This document shows, one piece after another, positions 6,478 through 61,083 of a DNA stretch of 64,000 nt. The notes beneath the pieces were generated by a model. The model searched no databases. It was given only the letters and a program-made list of their open reading frames with translations, and had not been told where the DNA came from. This DNA comes from Limnohabitans sp. 2KL-17. Its GTDB lineage: Bacteria > Pseudomonadota > Gammaproteobacteria > Burkholderiales > Burkholderiaceae_C. The stretch spans positions 1-64,000 of the forward strand of contig NZ_NESK01000022.1 in assembly GCF_003063415.1 (NCBI RefSeq), in the 5' to 3' direction. Each line of letters starts with the position of its first letter. Positions within the stretch are counted from its first letter, which is position 1. Made by a program: the position numbers and the translations under genes.

Positions 6478-7743
6478 ATGGACAAACTGATCATTCGCGG
6501 CGGCAAGCGCCTGCAAGGCGCGCTGGAAGTGGCTGGCGCCAAAAACGCGGCCTTGCCGGAGTTGTGCGCGGCATTGCTGAGCGCCGAGCCTGTCACGCTG
6601 GCCAATGTGCCACGCCTGCTGGATGTGTCGACCATGCTCAAGCTGATCCGCAACATGGGCGTGAGCGCTGAGCACCATGAAGATGGCCGCGTTACCCTCG
6701 ATGCGGGCGGTTTGAACAAGCCTGAAGCGCCCTACGAGTTGGTCAAAACCATGCGTGCTTCGGTGCTGGCGCTGGGGCCCTTGTTGGCGCGTTTTGGTCA
6801 CGCCAAAGTGTCCTTGCCGGGTGGCTGCGCCATCGGCTCGCGCCCGGTGGACCAGCACATCAAGGGCCTGCAGGCGATGGGCGCAGAGATCACGGTGGAC
6901 CACGGCTACATGCTCGCCAGCCTGGCTGCTGGCCGCACCCGATTGAAGGGCGCGCACATTACCACCGACATGGTCACCGTGACCGGCACCGAAAATTTCA
7001 TGATGGCAGCGGCATTGGCCGAAGGCGAGACCATTCTTGAAAATGCGGCTCAGGAACCTGAAATACCTGACTTGGCCGAGATGCTCATCAAGATGGGCGC
7101 AAAGATCGAAGGCCATGGTACACGCCGCATTCGCATCCAAGGGGTGGAGCGCTTGCAGGGCTGCGAGCATCAGGTGGTGGCAGACCGCATTGAAGCGGGC
7201 ACCTTTTTGTGCGCTGTGGCCGCGACCGGTGGCGATGTGGTCTTGCGCCATGGGCGCGCCGATCACTTGGAAGTCGTGATCGAAAAATTACGCGATGCCG
7301 GCGCGACCATCGAGGTGGGTGAGGGTTTTATTCGGGTCAGGTCTGAAGGCCGTTTGAAAGCCCAGAGCTTTCGTACCACCGAATACCCCGGCTTTCCGAC
7401 CGATATGCAGGCCCAGTTCATGGCGCTTAACTGCATTTCTCAAGGGGCCAGCAAAGTGACAGAAACCATTTTTGAAAATCGGTTCATGCACGTCAACGAG
7501 CTGGTTCGCCTAGGCGCACACATTCAAATCGACGGCAAGGTGTCGGTGCTTGAGGGCGTTGAAAAGCTGTCGGGCGCCACCGTGATGGCCACCGATTTGC
7601 GGGCCTCTGCCAGCCTGGTCATTGCGGGCTTGGTAGCCGATGGCGAAACGACCATCGAGCGGATTTACCACCTGGACCGTGGCTACGACCGGATGGAGTT
7701 GAAACTGCGCGGCCTGGGTGCCGACATTGAAAGAGTGAAATGA
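6478..7743 (+). CDS. murA: UDP-N-acetylglucosamine 1-carboxyvinyltransferase (MurA)
   Basis: First committed step of peptidoglycan synthesis: transfer of enolpyruvate from PEP to UDP-GlcNAc, in the cytoplasm. The 421-aa length is standard. The catalytic cysteine lies in [15 protein letters not shown] (about residue 118), the loop cysteine that fosfomycin alkylates in this family. KNAALPE near the N-terminus (substrate-binding lysine and asparagine) is intact. The stop overlaps hisG by four bases, linking a cell-wall gene to the histidine genes. Confidence 0.97.
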
Positions 7744-50864: not shown

Positions 50865-50889
50865 GCCAAGCGAGTAAGAAACGATCAGC

Positions 50890-50911
50890 TGGTGCCCCGA
50901 CAGTCCTCGAA
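50890..50911. repeat. attL, decayed copy of the tRNA-Arg 3' end
   Basis: TGGTGCCCCGACAG followed by a TCGAA matches the right-hand site except for one missing C and three changed bases. It lies 25 bases after the cyanophycinase stop. This is the expected leftover of the original tRNA end, free to mutate after integration. Confidence 0.7.
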
Positions 50912-50963
50912 TTTAGTCCGCTAACCCACATGGAATAAGGGTTTGTTTTTCGCTGTGGTCAAA

Positions 50964-50985
50964 TGTGCCCCCAAATGTGCCCCCA
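50964..50985 (+). repeat. Two TGTGCCCCCA repeats at the left end
   Basis: TGTGCCCCCA occurs at 50964-50973 and 50976-50985, each preceded by AAA, just before the integrase start. The same decamer is repeated at the element's right end. Likely arm-type integrase sites or an autoregulatory operator; inferred from position. Confidence 0.6.
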
Positions 50986-51005
50986 CACTGCGAAGGATAC
51001 CCCCC

Positions 51006-52220
51006 ATGAAACTGACCGATGCGAAGCTACGGACCCTGACCCAGCCGGGCAAACATGCTGACGGTGCAGGGCTTTACCTGGAACTGACCCCAGCGGGCGG
51101 CAAGTACTGGCGCATGAAGTACCGGCACGGCGGCAAAGAAAAGCGCCTGGCCTTTGGGGTGTACCCGGCTGTAAGCCTGAAAGATGCCCGGGAAAAAGCC
51201 GAAGCGGCCCGCAAGCTGCGGCAAGCCGGTGACGATCCCGGCGAAACCAAAAAGGCCGCGAAGGCGCAAACCGTTTTTGAAACGGCCAACACCTTGCAGG
51301 CGGTGGCCGCTGACTGGATGGCTCACCAGTCAACCCGCTGGGAGCCTGCAACCAAGGCCCGGGTTTTGGCTTCGCTTGAAACCGACATATTCCCCGCGCT
51401 GGGTGCCCGCCCGCTCGCCAGCATTCGCCCGAGCGAGGTTATGAAGGCGGTTCAAAAGATCGAGGCCCGGGGCGCTGGCGATCAAGCGGCCCGGGTGCTG
51501 CAACGGATCAAACAGGTTTACCGATGGGCCGTGACCCATGAGCGAATCGAGGCTAACCCCATGCTCGACCTGATGCCCGGCGAGATACTCAAACCCCGCG
51601 AAGTGAAGCACAGGGCCGCGCTGTCTGACCGTGACCTGTCCGGGTTCCTGGTGAAGCTGAACGCCTACCAAGGCGACACCAACACGGTGCAAGCCCTGCG
51701 CCTGCTGCTGCTGACCACCACCCGCCCGGGTGAAGTGCGGGGCGCACGTTGGAGCGAGTTTCACCCAGCCGAATCCCTTTGGATCATCCCCGCCGACCGA
51801 ATGAAAATGCGCGAAGAACACAGGGTTCCGCTGTCACGCCAAGCCCTGCAAGTGCTGGAAACAATGCGCCCGATCAGCGGTGACAGGGAATTGGTTTTCC
51901 CTTCGCCCTTCTACCCTTCAAAGCCCCTGAGTGAAAACACGTTCAATTCAGCATTGGCCCGCATGGGTTACAAAAACACGGCCACGGCGCACGGGTTCCG
52001 GGCGCTGTTTTCCACGGTGATGAACGAGCATGATCGAAGCCTGCGCGATGTGATCGAGCGCCAGCTAGCCCACAAAGAACGCGATCAGGTGCGGGCGGCT
52101 TACCACCGATCCACCTACATGAAAGACCGGGCCGACTTGCTGCAATGGTGGGCTGACTACCTGGACCAAAGGGCAAAGGGGGCCGAAGTGATCGACCTGG
52201 CCACGCACAGGGCCGCATGA
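51006..52220 (+). CDS. Tyrosine integrase, P4 type
   Basis: A 404-aa site-specific recombinase. The N-terminal arm-binding domain (DUF4102; LTDAKLRTLTQPGKHADGAG, KRLAFGVYPAVSLKDAR) precedes the catalytic domain with arginine in TTTRPGEVRGARW and HGFRALFS. The tyrosine region is AAYHRSTYM, before the typical WWADYLD tail. It lies next to attL, as usual for elements that enter tRNA genes. An efficient terminator follows directly. Confidence 0.95.
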   Translation: MKLTDAKLRTLTQPGKHADGAGLYLELTPAGGKYWRMKYRHGGKEKRLAFGVYPAVSLKDAREKAEAARKLRQAGDDPGETKKAAKAQTVFETANTLQAVAADWMAHQSTRWEPATKARVLASLETDIFPALGARPLASIRPSEVMKAVQKIEARGAGDQAARVLQRIKQVYRWAVTHERIEANPMLDLMPGEILKPREVKHRAALSDRDLSGFLVKLNAYQGDTNTVQALRLLLLTTTRPGEVRGARWSEFHPAESLWIIPADRMKMREEHRVPLSRQALQVLETMRPISGDRELVFPSPFYPSKPLSENTFNSALARMGYKNTATAHGFRALFSTVMNEHDRSLRDVIERQLAHKERDQVRAAYHRSTYMKDRADLLQWWADYLDQRAKGAEVIDLATHRAA

Positions 52221-52264
52221 TCTGACCCAGCCCGGCCCCGCGCTTTGCGAGACACCCCCAGCGG

Positions 52265-52290
52265 AAACCGCCCACCGAGGCGGTTTTTTT
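52265..52290 (+). terminator. Terminator after the integrase
   Basis: AAACCGCC pairs perfectly with GGCGGTTT around a six-base loop, followed by four more T residues. Confidence 0.85.
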
Positions 52291-52342
52291 GCGCCCGGGC
52301 GGTGTGTTTGGCGCTTTTTGGCGGCTGCTATTTTGAAAAAGT

Positions 52343-52461
52343 GCGGGGACAGCGGGGACAAATTGGAAGAACTGAGGATTTATGCGGGTTTGCAGCCGTT
52401 TGAGGTGCGGGGACAAAGCGGGGACAAAACGGGGACAAAGCGGGGACAAAGCGGGGACAGT
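52343..52461 (+). repeat. Left iteron cluster GCGGGGACAAA
   Basis: Two copies of GCGGGGACA stand at 52343-52351 and 52352-52360. Five further 11-bp copies (consensus GCGGGGACAAA, third with A at position 1, last cut at AG) lie end to end at 52407-52461. The 11-bp period puts every copy on the same helix face, as in plasmid iterons. No gene overlaps them. Confidence 0.8.
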
Positions 52462-52465
52462 ATCA

Positions 52466-52495
52466 GTATGTGAAAAAAATTACTCATTCACATAC
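52466..52495. repeat. 9-bp inverted repeat next to the left iterons
   Basis: GTATGTGAA and TTCACATAC flank an AT-rich 12-base centre right after the last iteron. It may be a melting site or a binding site of the replication protein. Confidence 0.55.
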
Positions 52496-53579
52496 ATTCA
52501 GAACCTTCAAACGTTCGTTTTTGCCCCATGCCTTGCCCTGTGCTGTGCCCTTCGCCCCGGCTTTTGTCGGTGGCCTGACTGACCCCGGCCCCGGTGCCCT
52601 TTGCCTGGTGCCCGGTGTTGCACGGCCCCGGCTTGCAATGGATACCCCCGGAAAAGGCCGCGAAAAGGGTTCCCCCATGGCCCCACCTTTGGCGGCGCTG
52701 CTGTCCGGCCTGATGGCCTGCTGACCTGGTGCGGCTGCTACCGGCCACGGCCTGCCCGGTGGCGTGATCGAGTGCAGGCGGTGCCCTGCGCCAGCGATGG
52801 CCGGGCGGGTTGCTTGCTGGTGCTGGCGCTGCTGTGCGGTGCGGTGGCAAAGGTGGCACGGCCACGGCCACGGGCAAGGCAAGGGCACAGGCACAGGCAA
52901 GGGCGGGCAAGACCCCGGCCCGGATCAGGCGGGCGCTGTGTGGTGTTGACCTAGTGCGGTTCGCTGGTGGCCAAGGCCCGCCCGGTGGCGTGATCGAGTG
53001 CGGGCGATGCTCTGCGCCAGCGATGGCCGGGCGGGTTGCTTGCTGGTGCTGGCGCTGCTGTGCGGTGCGGTGCGGTGCGGTGGCAAAGGGGCACGGCCAC
53101 GCCCAAGGCCAAGGGCAAGGGCAAGGGCAAGGGCAAGACCCGGCCCCGGATCAGGCGGGCGCTATGTGGTGTTGATCTGGTGCGGCTGCTGGTGGCCACG
53201 GCCTGCCCGGCGGCGTGATCGAGTGCAGCCGATGCCCTGCGCCAGCGATGCCCGGGCGGGTTGCTTGCTGCGATGCCTTCGCCTGTCCTGATGCCTGCGA
53301 CACCTACGCCCCAGCCCGTGCAATAATTCGCCCAACCCCTGACCGGGGCCGGTGCTTCAAAACACCTTTGAAACAAGCGGTGCAACGCCCCCGATAGTGG
53401 CGTTTTGTCACGTCTGAACATGCCCACGCCACGGCGGCGAGGGCTTTGGTTTTCGGGCGGGATGGCCGAAGCGGCAACGCCCGGCGCACGACTTGTTTCG
53501 TGTTTTGAACATCCCGCCCACCCGCTGCGCTTCAAAACGTGGCGAGTGGCTTTCAAGTCTCAACAAGGAGCATGAAGCC
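52496..53579. other. Non-coding, repeat-rich region
   Basis: No convincing gene in about 1.1 kb. The region is very rich in G+C and filled by degenerate repeats, which open many overlapping frames on both strands. The translated frames are biased and low-complexity, so I do not call them genes. A weak terminator-like hairpin, AACGCC/GGCGTT followed by TTGT, lies at 53384-53408. Confidence 0.6.
53111..53134 (+). repeat. AAGGGC hexanucleotide microsatellite
   Basis: Four perfect tandem AAGGGC units within repeat copy 2; copy 1 has an imperfect counterpart at 52871-52911. Length variation between strains is likely. Confidence 0.75.
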
Positions 53580-53831
53580 ATGACACCCAACGTCATTCAC
53601 CTGACCCGCCGACCCAGCACGGCAACACCCACCAACACCCTGCACGATCTGGCCACGATGGCAGCGCACCAAGAGGCAGAAAACGCCCTGGCCATGGCGC
53701 TGCACTACCTGCGATCCAGTGCGGGCAACATCCCCGGCGCTACCCGTAAAGCGGTGCAGGCATTGGGAGCATTGAACCGCCTGAACAAGCCCACCAACAC
53801 GCCCGCACCTGCTGGCGCTGCTGTCCGATAA
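53580..53831 (+). CDS. Small hypothetical protein of the element
   Basis: An 83-aa protein without recognised family. It starts with MTPNVIHLTRRPS, has a predicted helical centre (DLATMAAHQEAENALAMALHYL) and a proline/alanine-rich end. AAGGAG lies nine bases before the ATG. An earlier ATG at 53572 gives only MKP and stop, which may modulate translation. The 3' end runs into repeat-family sequence. Real gene likely from the ribosome site and helical pattern; function unknown. Confidence 0.6.
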   Translation: MTPNVIHLTRRPSTATPTNTLHDLATMAAHQEAENALAMALHYLRSSAGNIPGATRKAVQALGALNRLNKPTNTPAPAGAAVR

Positions 53832-54336
53832 GGCGACACGGGCAGGCACGGCCCCGGCCCCGGATCAGGCGGCGCTGTGGTGTTGACCTGGTGCGGCTGT
53901 TGTTGGCCACGGCCCGGCCTGTGGCGTGATCGAGTGCAGCCCGATGCCCTGCGCCAGCGATGGCCGGGCGGGTTGCTTGCTGCGATGCCTTCGCCCGCCC
54001 TTATGGCCAGACCTAGCGCCAACACCACCCCCACTTGATGCGGTGCATTGGTGCGCCCTTTGCCTGTGTGCTTTGGCTACACCATGCGTTATGACCTGTT
54101 CGATTGAGTGCAGAAAAGACACAGAAAGTCCGAGGAGGGCGAAGATTTTTTTTCACGTTCAAGCGGCAATGGATACCGACCATTTTTCAGAGTGAAGGGC
54201 ACGGATTAAGACATGTGCAAGGCTGTAAAGGTGTTTTCAGAAGTGTTCGTATGACGTGCAGAAATTCCAGCCGCCGGGTGGCGGCTGGAATCCTGCGGGG
54301 CACATTTAAACCCTCACAAACCCCCACGGAAGACTT
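53832..54336. other. Intergenic region before alpA
   Basis: It holds the fourth repeat copy (to about 54000), then about 330 bp of more mixed composition with no supported gene, an A/T-rich run near 54146-54160 and a perfect hairpin at 54264-54291. Promoters for the alpA operon should lie here. Confidence 0.55.
54264..54291. promoter_or_regulatory. Perfect 12-bp inverted repeat before alpA
   Basis: ATTCCAGCCGCC and GGCGGCTGGAAT are separated by GGGT, 45 bases before the alpA start. No T-run follows, so it is not a standard terminator. It could be an operator or an RNA hairpin in the alpA leader. Confidence 0.55.
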
Positions 54337-54573
54337 ATGGACACCACCAAAAACACCCAGCAAACCCCGCCCGGGCGCTTACTTCGCTTGACTGCTGTTG
54401 AGGGCTTAACCGGCCTTCGCAAGAGCACCATTTATGCAGGCATGGCCAACAAGCCCCCGACTTTTCCCACGCCCGTTCGGATCAGTGCCCGCGCTGTGGC
54501 CTGGCGTGAATCCGATGTACTGGCATGGATTGCAGCCCGTGCAGATGCAAGACCGCAAGGGGTAGCCAAATGA
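54337..54573 (+). CDS. AlpA-family transcriptional regulator / excisionase
   Basis: A 78-aa MerR-like HTH protein of the AlpA group. LLRLTAVEGLTGLRKSTIYAGM is the recognition part and RAVAWRESDVLAWIAAR the second half. In CP4-57 and P4-like elements AlpA promotes excision and controls the element's genes. It leads a tight operon; its stop overlaps the next start (ATGA). Confidence 0.9.
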   Translation: MDTTKNTQQTPPGRLLRLTAVEGLTGLRKSTIYAGMANKPPTFPTPVRISARAVAWRESDVLAWIAARADARPQGVAK

Positions 54574-54926
54574 TCAACACCAAAATTTCCGGACACCTCT
54601 GCGGTGTGGTGACGCTACACAAGACCACTATCGGCGGGATTTTTGCAACCTGGCGCATGGCGGCAGTTGATAGGCATGGGGTGAGCCAAGTTTGTGATTG
54701 CCTGAGCGATTCCAAGACCGACATTGAAGCCCTGCAAGCCCTGAGCGATGGTGATCCTGTTGTTGTTTGTGGCTTTGCTTCAGTAGGCGTTTTGGCTGGC
54801 GCACATGAGGGTCAAAGCCACGGCCTGAGCGTGAGGGTTGAAGCCGTGAGGACAGCCCACCACCCGGGCATAAATCCAAGGCACTGGACGCACCAAGCGA
54901 TGCAGGCCATTGATGCGGGCCATTGA
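54570..54926 (+). CDS. Hypothetical protein, possible OB-fold single-strand DNA-binding
   Basis: A 118-aa protein not clearly assigned. The alternating strand pattern (HLCGVVTLHKTTIGG, WRMAAVDR, GDPVVVCGFASVG, HGLSVRVEAVRT) recalls SSB or PriB-type OB folds. Its position between alpA and replication genes would suit an SSB. This is a fold guess only. It overlaps alpA by four bases. Confidence 0.5.
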   Translation: MINTKISGHLCGVVTLHKTTIGGIFATWRMAAVDRHGVSQVCDCLSDSKTDIEALQALSDGDPVVVCGFASVGVLAGAHEGQSHGLSVRVEAVRTAHHPGINPRHWTHQAMQAIDAGH

Positions 54927-54930
54927 TGCC

Positions 54931-55902
54931 ATGAATACCTTTACCAAATACCCCAACACCATGACACGGACAAATAAACAAATGCAAAACGACACCATGA
55001 ATAAAGTAATCGCCCCATTCGTAAACTCCGAACAACATTGGAAGGTGCAAGTTGCGGCGCTGTGTGCGGGCAATTCGCGCTTGGTGTTCGCTGTGGCCTG
55101 TGCCTTCGCTGGCCCCTTGCTGCGCCCCGCTGGGATTGCAACGGGCGGCTTTCACTTTCGGGGCGGGTCTTCAAGCGGCAAGACCACGGCCCTGAAGGTT
55201 GCTGCAAGTGTCAACGGTCAACCTGATGGCCTGCAACGCTGGGGCAAAACAGGCCGCGCCCTGGAGTCGATTGCAGCCCAGCAATGCGATTCGCTGCTGG
55301 TGTTGGATGCACTGGAACTGGTGGATCAGAAAACGGCGGGCAAGTGCATTGATAAGTTGTTTTCTGGTGTGGGCAAATCACGTGCAGCCCGTGAAGGTGA
55401 GCCACGGCCCCGGCTGTCTTGGCGACTGTTGTTCCTGTCTGCTGGTGAATTGGGTTTGGCCGATCAGATGGCCGAAGGCATGAAGCGGGCACGGACCGGG
55501 CAAGAAGTGCGAATGGCCGAGATTCCCGCTGATGCTGGCGCTGGCTGTGGCATGTTGGAAAACCTGCACGGGATGGACGGCGGCGGGTCTGCGTTTTCAC
55601 GCCACATCGTTGAACAGGCGGGGCGCTGCTACGGTGGCCCGGGCCGCGCCTGGTTGCAATGGTTGACCGAGAACGCCCGCACACTGAAGCCCGATCTACG
55701 CCAGCGAATCCAGGAAATCGAGCGCCACATGCTCCCCGAAGCCGGGGCCGGGCAGGTGCAACGTGCGGGCCTGCGCTTTGCCCTGGTAGGGGCAGCGGGT
55801 GAGATGGCCACGGCGGCGGGTCTGACCGGCTGGGAGCCGGGCGAGAGCGAACGGGCCGCGATAACTTGTTTCAATGCCTGGATGGCTTCAGTAAAGCCAT
55901 GA
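54931..55902 (+). CDS. Stand-alone DUF927 helicase-like protein with altered Walker B
   Basis: About 323 aa, homologous to residues ~590-870 of the large replication protein encoded downstream. The Walker A GGSSSGKTTALK is intact. The Walker B reads LLVLDAL where the large protein has LLVLDEL, so the catalytic glutamate is replaced by alanine (codon 55309-55311). Downstream, KCIDKLFSGVGKSRAAREG replaces ECAYMLANESSKARATRNG. It lacks the primase/Toprim part and the C-terminus. It probably binds but does not hydrolyse ATP and may regulate or join the helicase hexamer; inferred. The start could also be a later ATG (54961-54997). Confidence 0.78.
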   Translation: MNTFTKYPNTMTRTNKQMQNDTMNKVIAPFVNSEQHWKVQVAALCAGNSRLVFAVACAFAGPLLRPAGIATGGFHFRGGSSSGKTTALKVAASVNGQPDGLQRWGKTGRALESIAAQQCDSLLVLDALELVDQKTAGKCIDKLFSGVGKSRAAREGEPRPRLSWRLLFLSAGELGLADQMAEGMKRARTGQEVRMAEIPADAGAGCGMLENLHGMDGGGSAFSRHIVEQAGRCYGGPGRAWLQWLTENARTLKPDLRQRIQEIERHMLPEAGAGQVQRAGLRFALVGAAGEMATAAGLTGWEPGESERAAITCFNAWMASVKP

Positions 55903-56072
55903 AAGCCAACACGCCCAGCAACCCCAAAGACCTGCAAGCCCAGCGCCTGCGCTTGCATGGCCTGGACGTGATCGAGGGCAGGCAGGGCGGCACGGCCTTT
56001 CAAAAGCTGGTGCTGACCCGTACCACGGCAAGACCCAGCGCCAGCGCCCGGCGCTTACCGATGCGGCGGTGA
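55899..56072 (+). CDS. Small basic hypothetical protein
   Basis: A 57-aa arginine-rich protein (LQAQRLRLHGLDVIEGRQ; basic C-terminus). It starts inside the stop of the DUF927 copy (ATGA) and ends five bases before the HTH gene. No family recognised. The coupling supports a real gene. Confidence 0.45.
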   Translation: MKANTPSNPKDLQAQRLRLHGLDVIEGRQGGTAFQKLVLTRTTARPSASARRLPMRR

Positions 56073-56076
56073 CGTG

Positions 56077-56361
56077 ATGGACAAAACCACCAACACCCAG
56101 CCCCGTTACAACGGCATTGAAGGCCAGCGCCTGGCGATCCTGCACAGGTTGACCAAAGGCCCGGCCACGGTGGAACAACTGTCCACCGACTGCAACGCAC
56201 CAGACCCCCGCGCCCGTGTCCACGAACTGCGATGCGATGGACACCGAATCGAAACCCAAATGATTGACCGCACAAACCCCGATGGTTCCGTGAACCGTGT
56301 TGGGCTTTACGTGCTGTCAGTGACGGACAACCGGCAATGTGAATTGAACTTCAACCAATGA
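56077..56361 (+). CDS. Helix-turn-helix protein (HTH_39-like)
   Basis: A 94-aa protein with GQRLAILHRLTKGPATVEQL and DPRARVHELRCDGHRIETQ, the pattern of the phage/plasmid HTH_39 winged-helix family. A short strand-rich tail follows. It may bind the iterons or other sites of the element; target unknown. Its stop overlaps the replication gene by four bases. Confidence 0.75.
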   Translation: MDKTTNTQPRYNGIEGQRLAILHRLTKGPATVEQLSTDCNAPDPRARVHELRCDGHRIETQMIDRTNPDGSVNRVGLYVLSVTDNRQCELNFNQ

Positions 56362-59300
56362 CCCACCACCACACGCACGAAACCACGCGCCAAGCCCTGG
56401 CGCATATCCCGGCGAACCTGCCCCGCGATGAATGGGCACGGGTAGGCATGGCGATCAAATCAGAGTTTCCCGATGAAGGCGGTTATGACCTGTTCGCGCA
56501 ATGGTCTGAAACCGCCCCGGGCTTCAAGGCCAGCGATTGCCGAATAGCCTGGCGATCCTTCAAGGCGGGCGGGTCTGTGACCATGGGCACACTGTTGCAC
56601 ATGGCCAAACAACACGGCTACACCTTGCCCAAAGACGGGCAGGCAGCGGCGAAGCCTTCGCCCGAAGTGCTGGCCCAGCGCCAGCGGGATCAGGCCGAAG
56701 CCATGGCCCGCGAAGCCGAAGCCCAAAGCCTGCGCCATGAGGCGGCGGCTGTTGCAGCCCTGACCGCATGGGCAGGGGCCAGCTATCAAGGCGAATCTGA
56801 ATACTTGCAGCGCAAGGGTGTGAAAGCCCACGGCCTGCGCTTTGGTGCTGAAGGCGCTTTGATGATTCCCCTGTTCGATGCAGCGGGCAAGTTGTGGAAC
56901 CTGCAAAACGTGAAGCCGGACGGCCAAAAGTTGTTCTTGAAGGGTGGCCGTGTAACGGGCCTGTGGCACATGCTGGGGGCGGTGCCTGCCCCGGCTGCTG
57001 TGGCTGGCGCTGGTGCCCGTGATGGGGATCAGGGCAGCAACCCGCCCAGCGACACCGACACCACCACCAACCACGATCAGGCGGCGGCTGTCCGGGTGAT
57101 CCTGATTGCTGAGGGCTACGTAACGGCGGCCAGCTTGCACGAGGCCACGGGCTACCCGGTGGCGGTGGCCTTTAATGCGGGCAACCTGGACAAAGTGGCC
57201 CGCGCCCTGCGCCAGCATTACCCGGCGGCGCTGCTGGTGCTGTGTGGTGACGATGACCAAGCCACGTACACCAAGACGGGCAGCAACCCCGGCAAGATCA
57301 AAGCCACGGCGGCGGCGGTGGCTGTGCAGGGTGTGGCCATTTTTCCGGCCGATCTGCCCCCGGATCAAAGTGACTTCAACGACATGCACCAAAACCACGG
57401 CCTTGACGCTGTGCGTGACTGTGTGCTGACTGCGATTGCCGATCACGAACTGGCAGCGATGGCGGCGCACGATGACGAACAGGACGCACCAGACGGGGCC
57501 ACGCACCATACAAACGCGCCCGGCAAGACCAAGCCCCCAGCACGGAAGAAAAAGCCTGTAAACGGTGCCAGTGCTGGCGCTGCTGGTGGCGATGGTGGCC
57601 ACGGCGGTGACGGTGGCCGCACGGGCGGCAAAGCTGCGAACGATTGGGACAGATTCAGCGTGACCGATGAAGGGGTGTTTTATGCGGGTGTAGACAAGGA
57701 CGGCGAACCCACAAAGTCCGAATGGCTGTGCAGTCGTTTGGATGTGCTGGCCTTGACCCGTGACCATGATGGCGGCGGATGGGGTTATCACCTGCGCTTT
57801 GCCGATCCATTGGGACACGTCAAAACATGGGCCATGCCAGCCCGTATGCTGGCGGGTGACGGCGGCGAGTACCGCGCATTTTTGATGGGGCAGGGTCTGA
57901 GAATCGGCACTTCACCACGCGCCCGAAACCTGCTGACCCAATACATTCAAACGCGCCAGCCTGAGGACTTCACCACCTGCACCGACCGCATAGGCTGGCA
58001 CGGCCTGGCCTTTGTGTTGCCACGCGAAACCATGGGCGATGAAGCCGAAAAGATCGTTTTCCAAAGTGACCAAGCCATGGAAAACACATTCACAGTCAAA
58101 GGCACGGCTGACCAATGGCGTGACCGTGTGGGCGCGATGTGTGCGGGTAATTCGCGCCTGGTGTTTGCAGTGGCCAGCGCCTTTGCCGGGCCTTTGCTGC
58201 GCCCTGGTGGCGTTGAATCGGGCGGCTTTCACTTTCGCGGCGGATCGTCAACGGGCAAGACTACGGCCCTAAAAGTAGCGGCAAGCGTGAACGGTGGCCC
58301 CAACTACCTGCAACGCTGGCGCACCACTGACAACGCGCTTGAAGCGATTGCAGCCCAGCACTGCGATTCGCTGCTGGTGCTGGATGAACTGGCACAGGTT
58401 GACCCCAAAACGGCGGGCGAGTGCGCTTACATGCTGGCCAACGAATCGAGCAAGGCCCGGGCAACCCGTAACGGCGCACCACGGCCCCGGCTTTCATGGC
58501 GGCTGCTGTTCCTGTCTGCTGGTGAATTGGGTTTGGCCGATCACATGGCCGAGGGCATGAAGCGGGCGCGAACAGGGCAAGAAGTGCGAATGGCCGATAT
58601 TCCCGCCGATGCTGGCGCTGGTTTGGGGATGCTGGAAAACCTGCACGGCATAGAGGGCGGCGGGTCTGCGTTTTCACGCCACCTCGTTGAACAGGCGGGC
58701 CGCTGCTACGGTGGGTCGGGCCGTGCCTGGTTGCTGTGGTTGACTGAAAACGCCCACACGCTGAAAGCTGACATTCGCCAGCGGGTGCAGGCGATAGAAG
58801 CCCGCATGATTCCCGAAGCCGGGGGCGGGCAGGTTCACCGAGTGGGTTTGCGCTTTGCCCTGGTGGGTGCAGCGGGCGAGATGGCCACGGCGGCGGGCCT
58901 GACAGGCTGGGAGCCGGGCGAGAGTGAACGGGCCGCGATCACCTGTTTCAATGCCTGGATGGCTTCGCATGGCGGGTCTGGTGACGGTGAAGTGACCGCA
59001 ATGCTGCGACAGGTGCGGGCTTTCCTTGAATCGCACGGTGAAGGGCGGTTTACCTGGTGGCATAGGGCAGGCGATGACCATGCAGCCAAGACCTTGAACC
59101 GGGCCGGTTTCCGGCGCATGGTGAGCGAGGACGGAAAGCCGATCAAGAACGATGCCGAACACCAACGGGAATACGGGGAGCGCATGGCGTCAACCATGGC
59201 CGAATCAGTCAGCACCGAGTATTTCATTCACGCTGAGGTTTTCAAGGCTGAGGTTTGCAGGGGCTTTGATGCTGGCGCTGTTGCCCGGGTGTTGGTTGAC

Positions 59301-59417
59301 CATGGTTGCTTGATCCCTGAGGCTAAGGGGCGGCATGACTGCAAACCCCGATTGCCTGGGATAGGTCTTTCCCGCTGCTACCGAATCAGCCCGGCTATCT
59401 TTGCCCTGGACCTTTGA
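56358..59417 (+). CDS. Replication protein: PriCT-2 / Toprim / DUF927 helicase
   Basis: A 1019-aa multidomain protein. Residues ~10-90 form a PriCT-2 domain (GYDLFAQWSETAPGF, CRIAWRSFK). Residues ~244-345 form a Toprim-like domain (VILIAEGYVTAASL, LVLCGDDDQ). A Gly/His-rich linker lies near 405-432. From ~440 on is a DUF927 helicase domain with Walker A GGSSTGKTT at ~628 and Walker B LLVLDEL at 672-678. This resembles the P4 alpha-type primase-helicases that bind iterons and replicate satellites. It is the likely initiator for the iteron clusters. Confidence 0.9.
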   Translation: MTHHHTHETTRQALAHIPANLPRDEWARVGMAIKSEFPDEGGYDLFAQWSETAPGFKASDCRIAWRSFKAGGSVTMGTLLHMAKQHGYTLPKDGQAAAKPSPEVLAQRQRDQAEAMAREAEAQSLRHEAAAVAALTAWAGASYQGESEYLQRKGVKAHGLRFGAEGALMIPLFDAAGKLWNLQNVKPDGQKLFLKGGRVTGLWHMLGAVPAPAAVAGAGARDGDQGSNPPSDTDTTTNHDQAAAVRVILIAEGYVTAASLHEATGYPVAVAFNAGNLDKVARALRQHYPAALLVLCGDDDQATYTKTGSNPGKIKATAAAVAVQGVAIFPADLPPDQSDFNDMHQNHGLDAVRDCVLTAIADHELAAMAAHDDEQDAPDGATHHTNAPGKTKPPARKKKPVNGASAGAAGGDGGHGGDGGRTGGKAANDWDRFSVTDEGVFYAGVDKDGEPTKSEWLCSRLDVLALTRDHDGGGWGYHLRFADPLGHVKTWAMPARMLAGDGGEYRAFLMGQGLRIGTSPRARNLLTQYIQTRQPEDFTTCTDRIGWHGLAFVLPRETMGDEAEKIVFQSDQAMENTFTVKGTADQWRDRVGAMCAGNSRLVFAVASAFAGPLLRPGGVESGGFHFRGGSSTGKTTALKVAASVNGGPNYLQRWRTTDNALEAIAAQHCDSLLVLDELAQVDPKTAGECAYMLANESSKARATRNGAPRPRLSWRLLFLSAGELGLADHMAEGMKRARTGQEVRMADIPADAGAGLGMLENLHGIEGGGSAFSRHLVEQAGRCYGGSGRAWLLWLTENAHTLKADIRQRVQAIEARMIPEAGGGQVHRVGLRFALVGAAGEMATAAGLTGWEPGESERAAITCFNAWMASHGGSGDGEVTAMLRQVRAFLESHGEGRFTWWHRAGDDHAAKTLNRAGFRRMVSEDGKPIKNDAEHQREYGERMASTMAESVSTEYFIHAEVFKAEVCRGFDAGAVARVLVDHGCLIPEAKGRHDCKPRLPGIGLSRCYRISPAIFALDL

Positions 59418-59420
59418 GCC

Positions 59421-60152
59421 ATGACCACCAACATGACCACGCCCATCCCCTACAACGAGCAAGACGGCCCCGCCCCTGCTTTGTCGCACCTCATAGATTG
59501 CCATGTGCTGGACTTGCCGCGCTTTAACCCTGGCTGGGTCAACGAGATGCGGGCAGACCTTGACACCCAGCCCGTGAATCAACATTGGTTGCCCGGCATT
59601 GATGGCCGGTTAGGTGAGGCCCGGGCCTGTGGCTTTGCTTTGGGCTGTGCCCCTTTCGTGTCTTCGGTTGATCCTGACGACCGAATAAACCCGGGCACGT
59701 TTGCCGCGCTGTTGAAGGCGCTGCAAGACAACCCGGGCGCACCCTTTGCATGGGCTGGCGAACAAATGGTGAATGAGAGGCTGGAAGCCTGGCCAGTGCG
59801 CCCCCATGTGTGGCCCGGGGGTTATGACCCGCTGCTACACGTATGCAAAGGCACACACGTTCACGGCGTGAAGCTGTATCGCCGTGAACAGGTCACGCCC
59901 CACCTGCCTGCAATGCGAACAGTGGGGCAGGCCTGCGAGTTTTATTTAGACCTGGCCATTGTGAAGCCCTACACCACCCCCCCGCCCACATCATGGCCCG
60001 TGCATGTGCCCATGGTGGGCAGGCTATGGCGGCAACATGACACCAACGGGAGCCGGTACTTTGAACAGGAGAGCTTTACCCGTGCGGCCCTGGCGCTGGG
60101 GTTTGATTCGATGAACACCCTGCAAGCTGAAACGCGGCGGCACTGCCTTTGA
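59421..60152 (+). CDS. Glycosyltransferase-like (GT-A fold) protein
   Basis: A 243-aa protein in which GRLGEARACGFALGCAPFVSS followed by VDPDDRINPGTFAALLKAL closely follows the GT2 pattern, with VDPDD as the DxD metal site. A later WPVHVPMVGRLWRQHD carries a possible acceptor-side motif. No signal or membrane helix. Substrate unknown. A sugar transferase is unexpected in a minimal replicative element; it could modify DNA, a phage receptor or a protein. It is the last gene of the operon. Confidence 0.6.
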   Translation: MTTNMTTPIPYNEQDGPAPALSHLIDCHVLDLPRFNPGWVNEMRADLDTQPVNQHWLPGIDGRLGEARACGFALGCAPFVSSVDPDDRINPGTFAALLKALQDNPGAPFAWAGEQMVNERLEAWPVRPHVWPGGYDPLLHVCKGTHVHGVKLYRREQVTPHLPAMRTVGQACEFYLDLAIVKPYTTPPPTSWPVHVPMVGRLWRQHDTNGSRYFEQESFTRAALALGFDSMNTLQAETRRHCL

Positions 60153-60465
60153 GGGCGTTAATGCAGTGGGCATGACAGCCCACCCGCTTTGCCGCCCGAT
60201 AAGGGGGCGGGCGGGAATTCCGTTCGCGCTGCAAAGGGGGCGGCAAGGCTTGCACCAAGTAAGGGAAAAGCCAAGCCCTTGACCTGGCGCCATACCCACC
60301 TGGTGCCCGCCGATCTGGTGGACAGCGCCAGCGTTTGGACTGTCCTTGCTGGCGCTGTTGTCCTATCTTTTGCGGGCGCCATGGGTGCCCGGTGCCTGGA
60401 CGTTAACGGGCTAGGCTTCAAATCCATTTTCTAGGTTTCGCGCACAGCGAGGATTCAACCGAATT

Positions 60466-60507
60466 GCACAATATTTAAGCAAAATCAGTTGATAACTTGT
60501 TTTGTGC
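60466..60507. promoter_or_regulatory. AT-rich unwinding-type element
   Basis: GCACAA (60466-60471) and TTGTGC (60502-60507) flank a 30-bp centre with only seven G or C, in otherwise GC-rich DNA. A DnaA box follows immediately. This fits a DNA-unwinding element of a replication origin. Confidence 0.6.
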
Positions 60508-60516
60508 TGTGGATAA
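60508..60516 (-). promoter_or_regulatory. Perfect DnaA box (TTATCCACA)
   Basis: TGTGGATAA on the plus strand is TTATCCACA on the minus strand, the consensus DnaA-binding site. It stands between the AT-rich stretch and the right iterons. Confidence 0.75.
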
Positions 60517-60523
60517 GTGCCAT

Positions 60524-60563
60524 TTTGTCCCCGCTGTCCCCGCTTGTCCCCGCTTGTCCCCGC
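60524..60563 (-). repeat. Right iteron cluster (inverted relative to the left)
   Basis: Four copies of TTGTCCCCGC (minus strand GCGGGGACAA) stand end to end with 9-11 bp periods. They are the same motif as the left cluster but in opposite orientation. Confidence 0.8.
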
Positions 60564-60806
60564 ACAAAATAACGATAGCGGAAGCAAAACACACAAACAC
60601 CCCGCCGATTGTTCCCCGGTTTGGCCGCTTTACCTTTGCCTGTCTGGGGTGTGGCTGGGTCTGTTTGGGCTATGCCACCCCCCCCGTGTTGGGTCCTACC
60701 TGGGTAATGCTGTCACGGGTCGTTGCGAGCCCGGGGCCTGACTGTTTCATGGTTATGCCTAGGGGGTTGAGTTGTGAGGTCGGATGATGCCCCGCTATCC
60801 GTTGGT

Positions 60807-60958
60807 TGTGCCCCCGCGGTTGCAGCACATGCCCCCAATAATTACCCGATGTGCCCCCATCCTGGCAGTGCGCCCGCCTGGCCTTGCCTTTGGGGTGTTT
60901 GAAAATGTGCCCCCATTTTTGAAAATAGTGCCCCCAAATGTGCCCCCATGTGCCCCCG
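60807..60958 (+). repeat. TGTGCCCCC array at the right end
   Basis: Copies start at 60807, 60829 (ATGCCCCCA), 60850, 60906, 60927 (AGTGCCCCCA), 60939 and 60949. All are in plus orientation, several preceded by AAA. The last copy ends about 100 bp from attR. Likely arm-type sites for the integrase. Confidence 0.65.
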
Positions 60959-61060
60959 GAAGGTGGCACACTTCAGTAAACCACAATGGACGATGAAACT
61001 GAGTTTTCAGAGGGGGAATAAAAAAATCCGCACCGTTTTGGACGTGTGCGGATCAAAGTT

Positions 61061-61083
61061 TGGTGCCCCCGACAGGAATCGAA
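61061..61083. repeat. attR within tRNA-Arg
   Basis: TGGTGCCCCCGACAG plus a TCGAA is shared, with small changes, with the left site. It covers the CCA end, acceptor strand and part of the T arm of tRNA-Arg, the usual crossover area of P4-type integrases. Confidence 0.7.

Follow-up and report, generated by a model that had tools for sequence, protein, structure and literature searches.

A truncated DUF927 helicase core, probably a non-catalytic relic, in a variable operon slot of a Limnohabitans satellite-like element

The window analyzed here, the first 64,000 nt of contig NZ_NESK01000022.1 from the 3.5-Mb genome of Limnohabitans sp. 2KL-17, carries an integrated satellite-like element of ~10 kb (50889 to 61083) that runs from a degenerate attL beside the integrase gene to the 3' end of a tRNA-Arg(CCT) gene at 61061, which bounds it. 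No exact att repeat of 12 or more was found, and the degenerate copy was revealed by comparison with L049, a sister element in genome G008. Homology to L049 and to a further element, L044, starts at 50890; a 30-mer from the tRNA 3' end is found again at position 1567 of L049 (22/30 identical), and a weak match to it lies at 50889 of the window (16/30, the next best being 14). On the forward strand, the element encodes a tyrosine integrase (50943 to 52220; Pfam Arm-DNA-bind_3, Phage_int_M, and Phage_integrase), an AlpA regulator/excisionase (54337 to 54573; Phage_AlpA, 4.7e-14), a small unnamed protein (54570 to 54926), the DUF927 copy that is our subject, a second small unnamed protein (55899 to 56072), a winged-helix HTH_39 protein (56074 to 56361; Pfam, 1.1e-07), and an intact 1019-aa primase-helicase with PriCT_2, Toprim, and DUF927 domains (56358 to 59417; Pfam, PHROG DNA primase, PDB relatives 8tch and 5dgk). 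The copy thus lies between two small genes of an apparent single operon, as judged from the shared strand and from overlapping or adjoining starts and stops. Pfam and PHROG scans gave no match for either small gene; the upstream one is 99% identical in L049 and 49 to 51% identical in L045 to L047, and the downstream one 96% and 78 to 95%, respectively. A promoter scan of 54000 to 56400 found none.

The copy itself (54931 to 55902, forward strand) is a stand-alone, truncated DUF927/AAA+ helicase core of 323 aa, recognized by alignments, Pfam, and its translation. It forms a single open frame from an ATG at 54931 to a TGA at 55900 to 55902 (the ORF list starts the same frame at an upstream TTG) and aligns without gaps to residues 585 to 870 of the full protein, with 685 of 833 nt identical and, between the motifs CAGNS and NAWMAS, 225 of 276 aa. 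Its 323 codons are open, with neither a stop nor an indel over the aligned 833 nt. The Walker A motif GGSSSGKT (55162 to 55185, forward strand) is kept and agrees with the GxxxxGK[TS] pattern of active AAA+ helicases of the Cch/Rep type. In these, Walker B also closes with an acidic residue, where the copy has alanine: a GCA codon (55309 to 55311, forward strand) stands in place of the GAA of the full gene, turning LLVLDEL into LLVLDAL. Alignment thereby confirms what the initial annotation had read from the letters, including a full DUF927 protein about 3 kb downstream in the same (apparent) operon; from motif to motif the distance is ~3.1 kb, and the full gene begins ~0.46 kb past the end of the copy. 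Against the DUF927 model (PF06048), the copy scores 129.2 bits, well over the curated cut-off of 22.6, yet it covers only positions 155 to 280 of 284 and so is not a whole domain: it is missing the front half of DUF927 as well as the C-terminal 149 residues of the full protein.

A predicted model of the copy, which leans on a 71-row alignment of relatives, is confident overall (pLDDT 91.4) and places an AAA+ core in front of helices that would form a lid. The confidently predicted helices span residues 33 to 321, so that the piece ends near domain edges, the best argument that the copy could fold and bind. Foldseek returned SCCmec Cch (PDB 5dgk; E, 1.4e-10) and SaPIBov1 Rep (PDB 8tch; E, 2.2e-07), both DUF927-type helicases of solved structure, as the best structural matches, consistent with an AAA+ core fold; the same two chains alone matched the full protein by sequence with E no higher than 1. 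In the portion of PMC7581432 that deals with it, Cch is described as containing DUF927 and as related to the SaPIBov1 Rep helicase. Both chains are longer than the copy, which is without their front and back parts, and in both the last Walker B residue is acidic (DE in 5dgk, DD in 8tch), unlike in the copy.

The low-confidence part of the model, a leader of ~30 residues, corresponds to an AT-rich sequence without a clear homologue (54936 to 55041, forward strand; about residues 3 to 37) whose GC content is 41%, compared to roughly 60% in the element, and which contains repeated ATG and A-rich codons. Besides itself, the leader (54934 to 55060) had matches in 4 of 90 genomes of the genus, each of 21 to 24 bp and inside an apparent recurring membrane-protein gene on the opposite strand; these were taken as chance and rejected as true homology. 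A plasmid search with the leader and the front of the copy (54938 to 55404) gave no match. An alignment placed an NTF in the leader on an NTF of the full protein, a correspondence that may or may not be real.

Comparison with L049 shows the same site without the piece, as the gene equivalent to that at 55899 follows directly there. The flanks are 99% identical on the left (424/430 nt) and identical at 454 of 505 nt on the right, while at the protein level AlpA is 96% and the next gene 99% identical. Between these flanks lie 960 bp that are absent from L049 (54936 to 55895, forward strand), bordered by an 8-bp direct repeat, GCCATGAA (54928 to 54935 and 55896 to 55903, forward strand), that occurs once at the L049 junction; it could have arisen by duplication of the target or reflect micro-homology. 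The codon at which the 55899 gene used to start lies in the left repeat and is now in frame with the copy; the current start of this gene lies in the right repeat and overlaps the TGA of the copy. Because the copy has taken over the start of its neighbor and its stop overlaps the neighbor's new one, it may be translated. Other frames occupy the same slot in L045, L046, and L047. We infer that the piece was gained in the window's element and not lost from L049, a judgment drawn from one sister element, on which basis gain and loss are indistinguishable. The slot is not the only exchangeable part: L049 shares 98.6% of its integrase, 96% of AlpA, and only 71% of its primase with the window's element, and L046 has the reverse pattern (integrase 38%, primase 90%), so that the primase too is exchanged between elements by module swapping.

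Within the copy, divergence is concentrated in residues 97 to 157 (55219 to 55401, forward strand; residues are counted from the ATG at 54931). Compared to seven Limnohabitans-type primases, the copy has 80 specific nucleotide changes in 852 sites, 45 of them within 180 nt (residues 97 to 156). Such clustering was reached in none of 5,000 shuffles, in a test that scans every segment of a length (180 nt) fixed after the tract had been seen, and the seven other primases lack it (lowest, 366 of 5,000, in L010). At the protein level, 23 of the copy's 35 unique changes relative to six primases fall in residues 97 to 157, and those six have between 0 and 10 unique changes each. Four of the replacements, N109R, H118Q, E127A, and Y141D, break positions that are invariant in 37 of 37 other domains, and a fifth, N145S, one conserved in 36 of 37. 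Since the Walker B glutamate is lost together with N109, H118, and Y141, the copy is very probably unable to hydrolyze ATP as its relatives do. The annotation had spoken of a changed sensor region, of which the changed stretch stands; the segment RLLFLSAGELG that follows it, which we take to be the one that would hold sensor 1, is identical in the copy and the full protein.

The tract has changed as if it were neutral. In a codon model written for this analysis, with a hand-set topology and, in the fit with own branch lengths, a transition/transversion ratio fixed at 2.1, dN/dS on the copy branch was 0.753 in the tract against a background of 0.050; the background value was rejected (2dlnL, 27.6) and a value of 1 was not (0.64). 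These likelihood ratios are nominal because the tract limits were chosen after the changes had been seen. The branch leading to the copy has a length of 0.389 in the tract and 0.024 in residues 158 to 244, where neither the background value nor 1 was rejected. Over all codons outside the tract, dN/dS was 0.25 (background, 0.114), with 1 rejected (2dlnL, 15.1) and the background rejected weakly (4.7). Uniform neutral decay of the whole copy was discarded, as the changes are concentrated in residues 97 to 157 and a single copy-branch dN/dS fits worse than two (lnL, -2781.1 versus -2754.4). Positive selection in the tract was likewise set aside: dN/dS reached 1.52 with shared branch lengths, where 1 was not rejected (lnL, -2755.7 versus -2754.4), and 0.75 with own lengths. 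In neutral simulations, the tract stayed free of stops 21.5% of the time and kept a mean of 29.2 amino acids, compared to the 34 of 61 kept in the copy (P, 0.037); the absence of stops and this slight excess are weak evidence of use. Of the signs of neutral decay that could have told against the annotation, an elevated dN/dS was thus found in the tract, where it is indistinguishable from 1, and stops were not.

The unequal depth of divergence inside one gene points to recombination as the probable origin of the mosaic. In an older copy, the outer parts could have been overwritten recently from an active primase; alternatively, the copy could be recent and its center replaced. By both routes, low dN/dS outside the tract may stem from active primases and is no proof of constraint on the copy. 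The direct relatives are the Limnohabitans-type Toprim-DUF927 primase-helicases (L003, L008 to L011, and L064), which match the copy at as many as 45 of 45 nt in blocks outside the tract; the five from genomes have open frames of 1014 to 1036 aa, and all six read DEL where the copy reads DAL. A tree of 38 domains put the copy among the Limnohabitans primases, beside L003, with moderate support (93/65, short of what the tool counts as a firm fork) and on a branch of 0.25, compared to 0 to 0.046 for its neighbors. In each of the four 45-nt blocks of residues 170 to 229, the copy and L003 are identical or one nucleotide apart, in contrast to differences at 16 of 45 nt in residues 95 to 109 and 22 of 45 in residues 140 to 154, and in several blocks outside the tract the closest sequences are the L003, L008, and L064 primases. 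Much of the copy is therefore nearly identical to the primases of other Limnohabitans elements, and low dN/dS there says little about the copy. The tract appears to hold most of the copy's own history and to evolve as if the catalytic center no longer matters. No outside donor for it was found; the best DNA match among the loci compared was to Limnohabitans primases (84% over 118 nt), and the tract peptide had no relative among viral contigs.

Loss of the acidic residue at Walker B is exceptional among the relatives read. Across 92 fetched loci (a few of which are the same gene twice), Walker B ends in Glu in 90 and in Asp in 2, L094 and L102, whose LDD resembles the SaPIBov1 Rep chain. With the copy as the query, matches were obtained in 8 of 90 genomes of the genus, 49 of 399 in a family sample, 54 of 399 in an order sample, and 24 of 369 in a class sample (these sets overlap, all of them containing the genome of the window). 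In the match tables, from genus to class, a short open frame (342 aa from stop to stop) within a few kilobases of a full one is seen in no genome other than the window's. Twenty-seven loci, comprising 14 element neighborhoods, 10 viral contigs, and 3 second views, hold one DUF927 core each, all with DE, and none of the 14 neighborhoods has a second core. Other short pieces are apparent halves of one broken gene, solitary, or far from a second gene (840 kb in G743). Eight loci with short or partial frames comprise genes split between frames (L133, L136, and L137), matches that begin only part-way in (L131, L132, L134, and L138), and matches in two frames (L135); DE is kept in seven, the match in L138 misses the site, and none of the eight has a Glu-less core beside a full gene. 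Damaged DUF927 genes are thus not rare, and the match tables hold more matches in two pieces or with stops (G508, G855, G910, G925, G1004, and G467). The copy also matched 59 plasmid and 7 phage records, with a best identity below 60%, and no description of a stand-alone DUF927 copy was found in the literature searched.

With moderate confidence, we propose that the copy is a truncated, recombined, non-catalytic relic of a DUF927 primase-helicase. By this account, part of a primase-helicase of the satellite type would have been inserted, as 960 bp between 8-bp repeats, into a slot of variable content in the AlpA-to-primase operon. The source of this piece, or of the sequence that overwrote it, would be a primase of a different Limnohabitans element instead of the resident primase. 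The catalytic center of the piece (residues 97 to 157) would then have changed at a rate not distinguishable from neutral, much of the rest being recent. If made, the product would be a core that perhaps binds ATP and does not hydrolyze it, most likely an inert or nearly inert passenger, presumably without a kept function. This proposal builds on the observed truncation, the presence of the piece here and its absence from the sister element, the mosaic depth, the lost invariants, and the neutral-like rate of the tract. Several points argue against it: the frame is free of stops and indels, slightly more amino acids are kept in the tract than under neutrality, the predicted ends of the copy lie near domain edges over an AAA+ core and lid, which random truncation need not give, and the codons outside the tract are not neutral, though recombination could cause that. 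Nor was a source for the tract found, and one sister element leaves gain and loss indistinguishable. A relic would be ordinary in itself, and its interest lies in showing how satellite replication genes may be cut, inserted, and patched within one operon slot, with a sister site for comparison. It would also show how a single lost catalytic residue can mislead, since the glutamate was lost along with much else in a tract where no constraint could be measured.

The initial annotation had instead proposed an ATP-binding, probably non-hydrolyzing subunit that could poison, load, or tune the helicase and so serve as a built-in copy control. In this reading, a kept subunit would join the helicase ring, bind ATP through Walker A, and slow or tune replication of its own element. 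Walker A is indeed kept and hydrolysis very probably lost, the core and lid are predicted to fold like the Cch and SaPIBov1 Rep helicases, the frame is open in an operon position with a reused start and an overlapping stop, and the codons outside the tract are not neutral (which recombination could explain). Hda, a stand-alone AAA+ paralogue that regulates DnaA initiation, offers a working analogy for a core-only regulator, although Hda keeps its ATPase motifs. A clean Walker B variant kept for this purpose is nevertheless not what the sequence resembles, as several invariants besides the glutamate have been lost and the tract evolves in a neutral-like way. The annotation had looked to homologous elements for further pairs of a full DUF927 protein and a Walker-B-less copy, and no second pair was found among the matches listed and the loci read; the relatives read keep Glu or have Asp, and homologues with the glutamate were what it had named as counting against copy control. 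As L049 is without the copy despite a near-identical left flank, and the copy is nearer to the primases of other elements than to the resident one, we regard copy control as unlikely. A functional copy would amount to a simple form of dominant-negative control over the replication of mobile elements.

The closeness to the L003, L008, and L064 primases in several blocks, together with the exchangeable slot content, would also suit a captured helicase core that acts as a decoy, poisoning the helicase of a rival Limnohabitans element and so giving exclusion. Satellites carry variable and defense genes, according to the sections of PMC8628076 and PMC10803314 that treat their cargo; against this, there was no PADLOC match at E 0.01 and no recurrence was found, and the tract is neutral-like, so that we judge a decoy to be improbable. 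Somewhat less so, though still doubtful, is the idea that the tract is the remnant of an old stand-alone, non-hydrolyzing DUF927 "pseudo-helicase" lineage, residing in the exchangeable slot of satellites as a dominant blocker of its own or a rival's replication, whose outer parts were repeatedly overwritten from active primases. Such overwriting would keep the ability to join a ring and leave the center free to differ, which fits the branch lengths (0.389 versus 0.024), the domain-like ends, the reused native start codon, and the P of 0.037 for kept residues; no second example of the type was found among the loci examined. Two genes in one operon with a gapless alignment might suggest that the resident primase gene was simply duplicated in tandem and then mutated in Walker B. 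The synonymous distance of the copy is, however, 0.567 to the resident gene, compared to 0.331 to L003 and 0.336 to L008, and the block differences and the grouping with L003 (moderately supported) likewise disfavor duplication, which we consider very unlikely; the copy is accordingly not a simple duplicate of the resident gene. Equally hard to credit is a local mutation process or an assembly error, to which the packing of changes into ~180 nt, synonymous sites included (dS to L003, 0.509 in the tract and 0.289 outside), might point: the frame stays open, and there is no adenine-specific pattern. Adenine-directed mutation of the diversity-generating (DGR-like) kind was rejected on its spectrum, with the 47 tract changes comprising 10 A>G, 8 C>A, 8 C>T, and the rest spread.

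Known satellites provide a partial match for the element. As outlined in the pertinent sections of PMC10803314 and PMC8628076, PICMI and P4-like satellites share an integrase, AlpA, and a primase with this element, and in PICMIs the interval from alpA to the primase gene is filled by small genes that vary. PICMIs are defined in PMC10803314 by int, alpA, and prim (DUF3987/DUF5906) at fis, unlike the Toprim-DUF927 protein and tRNA-Arg site found here. The same sections describe P4 cnr, which controls copy number and lies near the P4 primase-helicase gene, and do not describe it as a helicase fragment. The P4-like satellite set (Psu, Sid, delta, and epsilon together with an integrase, AlpA, and alpha) is incomplete in this element, where an integrase, AlpA, a winged-helix protein, and a primase were detected; scans of nine element ORFs against Pfam and PHROGs yielded no Psu, Sid, delta, or epsilon. 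Related elements hold further genes in this region. L064 has a terminase small subunit-like gene (264 to 827; PHROG 57, 1.7e-16) between the winged-helix and primase genes, and in L045 a protein that looks similar by eye (~6824 to 7714) lies in the slot that the copy occupies in the window; the two suggest helper-phage packaging of related elements. The interval between the integrase and AlpA genes (52714 to 54005) holds long direct repeats at ~225-bp spacing, three consecutive and one near 53.84 to 54.0 kb, and similar long repeats are present in L044, L045, L047, and L049. A GCGGGGACAGCGGGGACA-type sequence of 24 bp lies close to each end of the element, the two occurrences being in inverted orientation (52343 to 52366 and 60520 to 60543; 23/24 identical), and is a possible origin or binding site.
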